From a virus: a stretch of DNA of 22,026 nt. Numbering within the stretch: the first letter of the stretch is position 1; each line of letters starts with the position of its first letter. The translations under genes were made by a program, and so were the position numbers. Under the pieces are notes generated by a model. That model ran no database searches, was not told the origin of the DNA, and saw only the letters and a list, made by a program, of their open reading frames with translations. Shown one piece after another: positions 6,421 to 13,858 of this stretch. The DNA is taken from the IMG/VR virus record IMGVR_UViG_3300049737_000217, positions 1-22,026 of that record. One strand, given 5' to 3'.

Positions 6421-6605
6421 TTTAAGTAGAAATCATTTGGCTCTACAGTACCCTCAGTAACATGATAAATTTTAACCATATTGTCTTTTGTTGGTATTCT
6501 AGTTCCATATTTATATTTAGACATAGTAGTTTTGGGTATACCACAATCATCACTAAATGATGCTAATGTCTTATTGTTTACATTAAGATAATCTCGTAAG
6601 TGCAT
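6417..6605 (-). CDS. XRE/Cro-like transcriptional regulator (62 aa)
   Basis: This small single-domain HTH protein contains LRDYLNVNNKTLASFSDDCGIPKTTMSKYKYGTRIPTKDNM: helix, turn with CGIP, recognition helix KTTMSKYK and the following G-x-R-x-P. This is the compact Cro/CI-like layout. An upstream TTG would extend it by 16 residues. The ATG at 6605 is preceded by AAAGGA at good spacing and is preferred. It is the first gene of the leftward operon, is coupled to the initiator by ATGA, and faces the divergent control region. It is a strong candidate for the protein that binds the repeated operators, although that assignment is inference. No large CI-type repressor is visible nearby. Confidence 0.8.
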   Translation of the reverse strand: MHLRDYLNVNNKTLASFSDDCGIPKTTMSKYKYGTRIPTKDNMVKIYHVTEGTVEPNDFYLK

Positions 6606-6664
6606 ATTAATCCTTTGTTTATTGTTAATTATTGCATATTCCTTTAGAAACAATGCTTGGAGAA

Positions 6665-6693
6665 ATCATAATTTATATGACCCATATTGTCAA
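6665..6693 (-). promoter_or_regulatory. Leftward early promoter, near-consensus sigma70
   Basis: The minus strand has TTGACA at 6693-6688, a 17-base spacer and TATGAT at 6670-6665. That is a consensus -35 and a 5/6 match at -10 at ideal spacing. The spacer includes ATGGGTCATAT, a form of the recurrent operator motif, so a bound regulator would block RNA polymerase. Transcription would start near 6658 and reach the regulator ATG at 6605 after a ~50-base leader. Confidence 0.8.
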
Positions 6694-6700
6694 TTAAAGG

Positions 6701-6757
6701 TTGCAATTAGTTTTCATGGGTTCATAATGGGTGACAAGTTAGACAGTTTGTGTCTGA
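6701..6757 (+). promoter_or_regulatory. Candidate rightward promoter and operator
   Basis: On the plus strand TTGCAA (6701-6706) and CATAAT (6723-6728) are separated by 16 bases. The -10 merges with ATAATGGGT, a copy of the recurrent operator. Downstream at 6739-6757, TTAGACA, five bases, then TGTCTGA form an imperfect inverted repeat with one wobble pair, a likely second operator. Together these would drive the rightward recombination operon at 6778. The -10 and -35 are weaker than those of the divergent promoter, so the exact boxes are uncertain. Confidence 0.5.
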
Positions 6758-6777
6758 CATAATAAACGAGTATTGAT

Positions 6778-7059
6778 ATGAAAGACTTTATAACATACTA
6801 CAAAAATTTTTTAGGAGATGATAAGTATTGGATTGATGATTTTCTTAACAACAAAATACTTAGAATATTCTTAGAAAAACACCAAGAAAATCCTATTGAC
6901 ATTGATGCTAGATATCATATGCAACAGGACTTAGGTGTTCAAAACAAGGCAGACTATTTAATGGTTGAGTTTATCAGGAGTGATATATTTAAAGATGCTC
7001 CTATAGATGATATCAATAAAGAGTTATTTATATATAAATTGACTAGGAGATTACAATAA
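6778..7059 (+). CDS. Hypothetical protein (93 aa), first gene of rightward operon
   Basis: I do not recognise this protein. It is acidic, rich in Asp/Asn/Ile/Phe, starts MKDFITYYKNFLGDDKYW and ends in KLTRRLQ, and appears all-helical. No metal-binding or membrane motif is visible. The ribosome-binding site is weak (ACGAG). It ends in TAATG, overlapping the next small gene. First genes of such operons often encode small anti-host or regulatory proteins, but nothing in this sequence shows that here. Confidence 0.75.
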   Translation: MKDFITYYKNFLGDDKYWIDDFLNNKILRIFLEKHQENPIDIDARYHMQQDLGVQNKADYLMVEFIRSDIFKDAPIDDINKELFIYKLTRRLQ

Positions 7060-12611: not shown

Positions 12612-12633
12612 GCTTTTGTATGATGTCCTAGCA

Positions 12634-12667
12634 CATTATGGGTACAATGTCAATAAAAAAAATAATT
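12634..12667 (+). repeat. Promoter-like repeat, copy 1
   Basis: This 34-bp element begins CATTATGGGTACAATGTCAA and ends in an A8 run plus TAATT. It aligns with 13826-13858 at about 29 of 34 positions with one gap. TACAAT could be a -10 box. On the minus strand the same bases supply TTGACA followed by ACCCATAATG, which would suit a leftward promoter for the envelope operon. It therefore may be bidirectional. Confidence 0.6.
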
Positions 12668-12709: not shown

Positions 12710-12738
12710 TTGCTAATGTTACCCATATCGTATATACT
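12710..12738 (+). promoter_or_regulatory. Candidate promoter for the leader RNA and HxxxH gene
   Basis: TTGCTA (12710-12715), a 17-base spacer, and TATACT (12733-12738) give a good sigma70-like match. The spacer contains ACCCATAT, again a form of the recurrent operator motif. The expected start is near 12745, which would make a ~190-base untranslated leader before the ATG at 12935. Confidence 0.6.
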
Positions 12739-12742
12739 TATA

Positions 12743-12900
12743 TATAAGAGTGAGAAAAAGATACTCTATAAAAAGTCGTTGGGAGTTAGAACATATGCCT
12801 GATAGCAACTGGTGAGGAGTAGCGACCTACAAGGCTAAAAGATTCCATAGTCCAACACTATTTAAAGTAAGTCCATAAATGGCTATGGATACTGCTTTAA
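12743..12900 (+). ncRNA. Structured untranslated leader / candidate cis-regulatory RNA
   Basis: This non-coding stretch has several possible helices. TATAAGAGT pairs with ACTCTATA around 12743-12770 with one bulge. GTTGGG (12778-12783) pairs with TCCAAC (12851-12856), closing a domain that holds GCCT/AGGC (12797-12800 with 12832-12835) and GTAG-CGAC-CTAC (12819-12830). TTTAAAGTA (12861-12869) pairs with the GCTTTAAA strand near 12894-12901, enclosing TCCATA-AATGGC-TATGGA (12872-12889). TATGGA can alternatively pair with TCCATAG at 12844-12850. The competing pairs resemble an expression switch. It matches no riboswitch, ribozyme or intron class that I can name; group I introns were considered and not supported. 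Confidence 0.5.
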
Positions 12901-12901
12901 A

Positions 12902-12918
12902 GATTTGGTTGGTGATTT
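12902..12918 (+). repeat. 17-bp inverted repeat, left arm
   Basis: GATTTGGTTGGTGATTT is the perfect reverse complement of 13776-13792. It lies 16 bases before the ATG of the HxxxH gene, just upstream of its AGGAG ribosome-binding site, so pairing of the arms would loop out the whole coding region. Confidence 0.85.
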
Positions 12919-12934
12919 TTTACTAGGAGCAAAA

Positions 12935-13771
12935 ATGCAAATACAAAAAATCATAAATAAAAAAGTAGACCGAGAGGACTACGATCAATTTATTAATCCT
13001 ATTCATCAAAAAATGAAAGATGAAAATGATAACAAGAAACCAACATTCAAAGAATGTATTTCAGTTATCAAAAGACTCTATCGTTTAGAGATGAATAAGC
13101 CTTTACCAAAACATTACGAGTTCAAAACCACATCAGGTAATAGACATACTTGGTGCAGATCAAGAACTTGGAAAATAAATTCTCAAACTACTTGGGAAGA
13201 TATTATCCACAAGTCTTGTCATTGGATTGAGTATCGTAAGTATGGCTCAGATGCTAAGATACATAATCTTAATTCATTTAGAATGGAAAAAAGATTTGTT
13301 GAATATGCTTATAAACATAAGTGGCACTTGGGTGCTTTGATAAAGGCGACCAAAACAAAAGTTGAAGTCAACAAAGATGCTTTGATGATTGACAGACTTG
13401 AGAAAAATATAATTTCTTGGGAAAAGAAAATCAAAAAGGCAAATACTTTCATCAAGAAGTATTCTAAACAATTAAAATACTACAAGAAGAAAGTTGCCAA
13501 TGGCATTGTTGCTAAACCTAAAGCCAAAGGATATAAGATAGAATCTTATAAACAGAAAGCTGAAAGGTTGCTTGAACTTAATCCTGAGATTAGTTTACAA
13601 CCATTTTATGAAATGGAAGATACGAATAAGTTTTTTCCATGTAAAATACTTCAAGTAAACGATAAAGATTGGGATTATGACAACGACATGGAATGGTGTA
13701 GTGCAGATCACGAACACTATTCTTGGAAACCATTATATGAAGAAATACTTTTATATAGTGTAAATAAATAA
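12935..13771 (+). CDS. HxxxH metalloprotein-like phage protein (278 aa)
   Basis: After a basic helical N-terminus, the core has RHTWCRSRTWKIN, then TTWEDIIHKSCHWIEYRKYG with an HxxxH pair (H92, H96), then KIHNLNSFRMEKRFVEYAYK with H110 and E118, and KWHLGAL. The order W-x-D-x-x-H-x3-H, H, ME resembles zincin-like phage proteins of unknown substrate; metal binding is likely but not shown. Residues ~150-190 are a basic coiled coil (RLEKNIISWEKKIKKANTF). The C-terminus is Trp/Asp/Tyr-rich. AGGAG with CAAAA spacing supports ATG at 12935, not the earlier in-frame TTG at 12905. A perfect 17-bp inverted repeat flanks it and a structured leader precedes it. Confidence 0.8.
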   Translation: MQIQKIINKKVDREDYDQFINPIHQKMKDENDNKKPTFKECISVIKRLYRLEMNKPLPKHYEFKTTSGNRHTWCRSRTWKINSQTTWEDIIHKSCHWIEYRKYGSDAKIHNLNSFRMEKRFVEYAYKHKWHLGALIKATKTKVEVNKDALMIDRLEKNIISWEKKIKKANTFIKKYSKQLKYYKKKVANGIVAKPKAKGYKIESYKQKAERLLELNPEISLQPFYEMEDTNKFFPCKILQVNDKDWDYDNDMEWCSADHEHYSWKPLYEEILLYSVNK

Positions 13772-13775
13772 AATC

Positions 13776-13792
13776 AAATCACCAACCAAATC
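13776..13792 (-). repeat. 17-bp inverted repeat, right arm
   Basis: AAATCACCAACCAAATC lies four bases after the stop of the HxxxH gene and is a perfect reverse complement of 12902-12918. No duplicated target bases flank the two arms. Confidence 0.85.
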
Positions 13793-13802
13793 AATAAATA
13801 CA

Positions 13803-13832
13803 CATAATGGGTTTGACCTATAACCCATTATG
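13803..13832 (+). promoter_or_regulatory. Operator palindrome with overlapping promoter for DUF3310 operon
   Basis: CATAATGGGTT, eight bases, and AACCCATTATG form a perfect 11-bp inverted repeat. TTGACC (13813-13818) straddles the end of the left arm and the centre and is a candidate -35. TGTAAT or TAATGT just downstream (13834-13841) could be the -10. This is the most complete copy of the motif also seen at 4918, 6680, 6724 and 12634. It would control the rightward operon starting at 13875. Confidence 0.7.
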
Positions 13833-13858
13833 GTGTAATGTTAATAAAAAAAATTATT
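13826..13858 (+). repeat. Promoter-like repeat, copy 2
   Basis: This element starts CATTATGGTGTAATGTTAAT and ends in an A8 run plus TTATT. It is nearly the same as 12634-12667 and sits directly upstream of the AAAGGAG ribosome-binding site of the 51-aa gene. It overlaps the right arm of the operator palindrome. Confidence 0.6.

Follow-up and report, generated by a model that had tools for sequence, protein, structure and literature searches.

The window analyzed here, the whole stretch of 22,026 bases, is a virus record that carries genes of the terminase, tape-measure, DnaB-like, ERF, and DUF3310 types. Positions 12743-12934 are flanked by a - strand gene cluster and a + strand ORF of 278 codons. 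They make up the structured 5′ leader of a phage gene cassette that is complete in itself, with a promoter of its own (Table 1). The original prediction had placed a structured, untranslated leader behind a promoter here, and this part of it is upheld. The promoter-like site recurs at the same position in two relatives, as TTGACA-17-TATACT in L003 and as TTGACA-17-TATAAT in L005, with promoter-like matches in the window scan being no more frequent than in shuffles. The cassette would read, in order, promoter, 5′ hairpin, structured leader, RBS, ORF, and a closing sequence past the stop codon. Its 5′-terminal hairpin probably protects the 5′ end. The idea that the leader might instead be a separate small RNA is unlikely, because the window scan found nothing resembling a terminator between leader and ORF. 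Imperfect direct repeats (about 85%) at 12629-12667 and 13821-13858 bound the promoter-leader-ORF cassette in the window, which suggests insertion or duplication of the cassette through recombination.

Table 1. Features of the leader and cassette, in window coordinates.
Feature	Position	Strand	Basis or remark
Sigma70-like promoter, TTGCTA-17-TATACT	12710..12738	+	9/12 matches; same place in L003 and L005
5′-terminal hairpin	12747..12767	+	Folding; 12747-12752/12762-12767
Long irregular hairpin domain (P1, P1a, P2, P3)	12778..12856	+	Helix check in the window, L003, and L008
P1	12778-12783/12851-12856	+	Helix check
P1a	12794-12797/12846-12849	+	Helix check; other complementary pairs in L003
P2	12803-12806/12834-12837	+	TAGC/GCTA becomes TGGG/CCCA in L003
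P3	12819-12822/12827-12830	+	Helix check; other complementary pairs in L003
Second hairpin (TTTAAAG hairpin)	12861..12901	+	12861-12869/12893-12901 and 12871-12877/12884-12890
5′ arm, GATTTGGTTGGTGATTT	12902..12918	+	Extended to 12896-12918; stops 6 nt short of the Shine-Dalgarno
Shine-Dalgarno, AGGAG	12925..12929	+	Position relative to ATG checked across all loci
278-codon ORF	12935..13771	+	No family in profile libraries (Pfam, PHROG, NCBIfam, PADLOC) or PDB sequences
3′ arm, AAATCACCAACCAAATC	13776..13792	+	5 nt past the stop codon; extended arm 13776-13798
Hairpin CATAATGGGTT/AACCCATTATG, 3′ of the cassette	13803..13832	+	Terminator-like on the - strand only

The ORF was found in 11 viral contigs, a set that was then extended with profiles, and is absent from most related phages fetched via a neighboring tail gene. 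The window showed no DNA similarity to known phages, and protein relatives were found neither in plasmids nor in one genome per prokaryotic species. An AlphaFold model of the 278-residue protein (mean pLDDT 70) predicts a zincin/SprT-like fold followed by a coiled coil. Structure comparison gave a weak likeness to small zincins, with SprT-like and IrrE-like phage proteins among the matches; selecase in the PDB was not significant. In the aligned members, an HxxxH with H and E after it is invariant, which resembles a zincin, but all of them are missing the catalytic glutamate of HExxH. A weak, distant relative is an unannotated ORF of Erythrobacter phage vB_EliS-L02 (OL955261.1 85516-86193, - strand; L147:1890-2567). 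The leaders were sorted into class A (the window = L001 = L002; L003 = L004; L008), class B (L005 = L006 = L007; L141; L142; L145), class C (L010 and L143), and class D (L159). In classes A to C, a promoter-like site stands just upstream of the leader wherever this was read.

At -44.6 kcal/mol (z = -1.76), the fold of the leader is equaled by 9 of 200 shuffles, so folding energy alone is just modestly unusual. In class A, all three sequences (window, L003, and L008) retain the long irregular hairpin and the second hairpin. Because the helices were picked with these sequences in view, and because P1a overlaps P1 by two bases in L003, we take this as support rather than as a blind test. The second hairpin, which had been proposed from the window, has a pair probability of about 0.9 in the leader ensemble and covaries among the class A relatives: L008 has a double change from C-G to U-A, G-U changes (two in all) occur in L003 and L008, and no pair is broken. 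The loop of this hairpin is conserved. Class B has a comparable single long hairpin made of different letters. The view that the leader matches no recognized RNA class also stood, as Rfam covariance models assigned the leaders to no family (riboswitch, sRNA, ribozyme, or intron) at gathering score, and permissive E-values up to 10 returned chance-level matches only. A conserved leader peptide, which would speak against an RNA reading, was rejected: MPDSNW is common to the window and L008 and is replaced by another sequence in L003.

The end of the leader is complementary to a segment just past the stop codon. In the window, 12902-12918 and 13776-13792 can form 17 uninterrupted pairs, and the extended arms are the top inverted repeat around the ORF. 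A complementary arm pair is present in all nine loci having both sides present; it appears as an inverted repeat at the same position in L005, L008, L010, and L141, and by duplex analysis in L003, L142, L145, and L159. Stem length ranges from 14 to 27 pairs across loci. The letters of the arms differ between lineages and both arms change together, including, within class B, U-A to C-G between L005 and L141, L142, and L145. Judged by sequence comparison, this ORF-closing pairing is kept in related marine phages despite the differing letters. Leaders form duplexes of -21 to -43 kcal/mol with their own trailers and mostly of -8 to -24 kcal/mol with trailers swapped between lineages, the exceptions being swaps within class B and those joining the L005 leader to trailers of class B or of the window. 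When the flanks of 3045 ORFs in 244 loci were scanned, the 278-codon family and the L159 genes were among the top, scoring 31.5-46.5, where the 99.9% quantile of the null was 29.5.

Folding of the full-length message gave the stem a maximum pair probability of 1.0 in seven of eight loci. L010 reached 0.78, and its minimum-energy fold does not contain the stem. A gapped duplex measure is weak in both L008 and L010, with 55 and 69 of 2000 shuffles, respectively, being as good. The evidence base amounts to about six independent lineages. Where the distant protein relatives L147 and L166-L168 were read, they showed no arms of this kind, so the protein family can do without the stem. The original prediction missed the stem, the strongest feature of this region, because finding it needs the 3′ side, which lies outside the stretch that it covered.

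We lean toward a reading in which the leader end would base-pair across the ORF with the segment past the stop codon, leaving the RBS and ORF as the loop of one long-range stem in the messenger RNA. Such a stem would form in the cell once the message is complete, and would close or protect the message, not by hiding the Shine-Dalgarno but by keeping both ends in structure and shielding the 3′ end from exonucleases. A cut by RNase III at a defined place would be possible as well, as a stem of 14-27 pairs allows cleavage. We infer that the stem serves to protect the message or to process it. Until the 3′ side has been transcribed, the arm would pair inside the leader and weaken P1, and completion of the message would free it. 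Predictions for the leader alone have the arm pairing locally, displacing P1 in the window, L005, and L145, whereas those for the full message have it pairing across the ORF, with P1 formed. Because the local partner of the arm differs from locus to locus, we do not claim this rearrangement between nascent and complete message as a conserved switch.

The predicted replacement of local pairing in the full message would also suit a translation switch like those in type I toxin messages (hok, AapA1/AapA3) or icaR, in which the 3′ side hides the RBS until processing or a signal. The topology is shared with these precedents: in Staphylococcus aureus icaR mRNA, pairing of the 5′ and 3′ UTRs around the ORF covers the Shine-Dalgarno and blocks translation (PMC3868564), and in the AapA/IsoA type I toxin message a 5′-3′ long-distance interaction hides the Shine-Dalgarno (PMC6733600). 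We nevertheless consider a translation switch unlikely here. In the loci read, the 5′ arm stops 6-9 nt short of the Shine-Dalgarno and leaves it uncovered. The predicted accessibility of this site shows no consistent trend when the partial message is compared with the full one, so a simple on-off switch is not supported. The product, moreover, is a soluble-looking protein of 278 residues and not a small membrane toxin.

The ORF-closing stem differs from that of icaR in ending before the Shine-Dalgarno, with which its 3′ arm does not pair, in hugging both ends of the ORF, in being longer, and in changing its letters between lineages while the pairing stays. Like hok/Sok and AapA/IsoA, the phage messages are predicted, from sequence and covariation, to have their ORF enclosed by a long-range stem between the message ends and to pass through transient local structures first. 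Unlike them, they encode no toxin-like peptide (278 codons, predicted zincin-like plus coiled coil) and do not occlude the Shine-Dalgarno. The sequence gives no sign of an antisense RNA, with promoter-like sites fewer than in shuffles. Because icaR and AapA hide the Shine-Dalgarno and the phage stem does not, it appears to belong with neither and to be a new form of 5′-3′ UTR pairing.

The leader itself could be the functional element, a ligand- or protein-binding cis-regulatory RNA (riboswitch-like, or the target through which the 278-residue protein regulates its own gene), to which the closing stem would be secondary. Its compact, covarying hairpin domain and the conserved loop of hairpin 2 would fit, as would its constant association with the ORF: exact matches to two leader motifs all fell in contigs carrying the ORF (5/5 and 6/6). 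A loose gapped motif scan, which returned 119 stretches, mostly chance, was set aside. We find a primarily cis-regulatory leader improbable, however, given that Rfam had no matches and that the domains of classes A, B, and C look unlike one another. Model R1, built from the class A leader, missed all leaders of classes B and C and gave no hits in the group's other phages; it is the closing stem, not the leader domain, that is common to all. The HK022 put RNA, which acts on RNA polymerase over distance (PMC9378689), is likewise a structured RNA directly behind a phage promoter. Unlike the phage stem, put has no partner past a stop codon, and class B cassettes differ from it in holding just one gene, with a convergent gene coming after it.

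The arms might alternatively work at the DNA level, as terminal inverted repeats or recombination sites at the ends of a mobile ORF cassette. The cassette does occur in differing neighborhoods and is missing from most of the related phages found, the direct repeats in the window sit at its bounds, and phages of the L159 type swap ORFs between copies of an intergenic module. The manner in which the arms deviate from perfect complementarity points elsewhere. With G-U scored as a mismatch and one locus taken per lineage, 12 deviations are G-U in the sense strand (five each in L005 and L145, one each in L010 and L159) and one in all is A-C, making pairing of the sense RNA likely rather than DNA ends. 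The window arm contains no G-U pair, so this argument rests on the other lineages. The arms also differ by lineage, the promoter and leader that travel with the ORF lie outside them, and no transposase-like protein was recognized within the cassette. Nor do the ends resemble those of a terminal-inverted-repeat transposon, as the arms are not conserved in sequence and inspection revealed no direct repeat immediately outside them. We therefore regard DNA-level ends as a doubtful explanation at best.

Two other kinds of genetic element invite comparison. Phage morons usually end in an intrinsic terminator. The cassette resembles a moron in placing a lone gene and its promoter at varying positions among other phage genes, and differs in that its end is the partner of its leader. 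In group I and II introns, intron-encoded ORFs sit in peripheral loops. An ORF with its own RBS in the loop of an RNA stem is a shared trait; unlike in these introns, no catalytic core was recognized on either side of the ORF, and there was no Rfam match.

L159 has an operon of six consecutive genes, all with arms. Around the first (546-794) lies a long inverted repeat, 498-532/872-906, and the other sister genes have TCGGCAGGGTGTAA before and TTACACCCTG..GA, or a close variant, after. The last, which belongs to the 278-codon family, has TCGGCAGGGCATGAC and GTCATGCCCTGTCGA as arms instead. The two have changed in concert, and downstream there is no strong partner for the 3′ arm. If intergenic hairpins, such as processing sites, were simply repeated, any ORF between two copies would look flanked. 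This holds for the inner L159 genes, where each intergenic region contains a CCCTG..GA/TCGGCAGGG hairpin and the arms can form local intergenic hairpins too. As an account of the whole family, such a by-product is very unlikely, being contradicted for classes A to C: a search for local partners found no strong one for either arm in eight of nine loci, L159 being the exception. Even there, the last gene has changed both arms flanking the ORF, and its local hairpin is mismatched beyond the common core.

Operons of small genes parted by a repeated hairpin module lie at L159:546-3489 and L247:2824-4271. In the L159-related loci L244, L245, and L247, different ORFs stand between the copies of this module, so the modules may be exchange points too. 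Between two genes of the phage in L244 there is also a probable hammerhead ribozyme (1998-2080, - strand; RAGATH-1-hammerhead, E 0.0038, scoring 31.9 bits where the gathering score is 56.3), with the core CTGATGA..GAAAC..GTC and a GTTATA/TATAAC stem. On the reverse complement of L244, at about 6498-6821, a ~324-base noncoding leader is predicted to be highly structured (-90 kcal/mol, without shuffle comparison), with a promoter-like site before it and a gene starting MNHIKTRFLPATDTRGERIK after it.

The switch first proposed for this leader, in which TATGGA (12884-12889) alternates between TCCATA (12872-12877) and TCCATAG (12844-12850), has almost nothing left in its favor, for although the strings are where they were reported and both pairings are possible in the window, the alternative has a probability of about 0.08 in the ensemble, two of its seven pairs are broken in each of the independent class A relatives L003 and L008, and 12846-12849 may instead pair with 12794-12797, as in L008.

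To our knowledge, few cases of 5′-3′ pairing inside bacterial messages have been described. The examples compared here, icaR and AapA, hide the RBS, whereas the phage stem would tightly enclose the ORF and leave the Shine-Dalgarno unpaired by it. It is possible, and we suggest it only tentatively, that one phage group packages individual genes as separate RNA loops, each ORF and its RBS being closed by a co-evolving stem of their own. If so, the loops would follow one another serially along an operon in one lineage, and each gene would be an independent structural unit of the message. The arms are short, so they could easily be mutated and compensated in a reporter, and the stem family would lend itself to testing whether phages use closed-loop messages, end protection, or per-gene processing.
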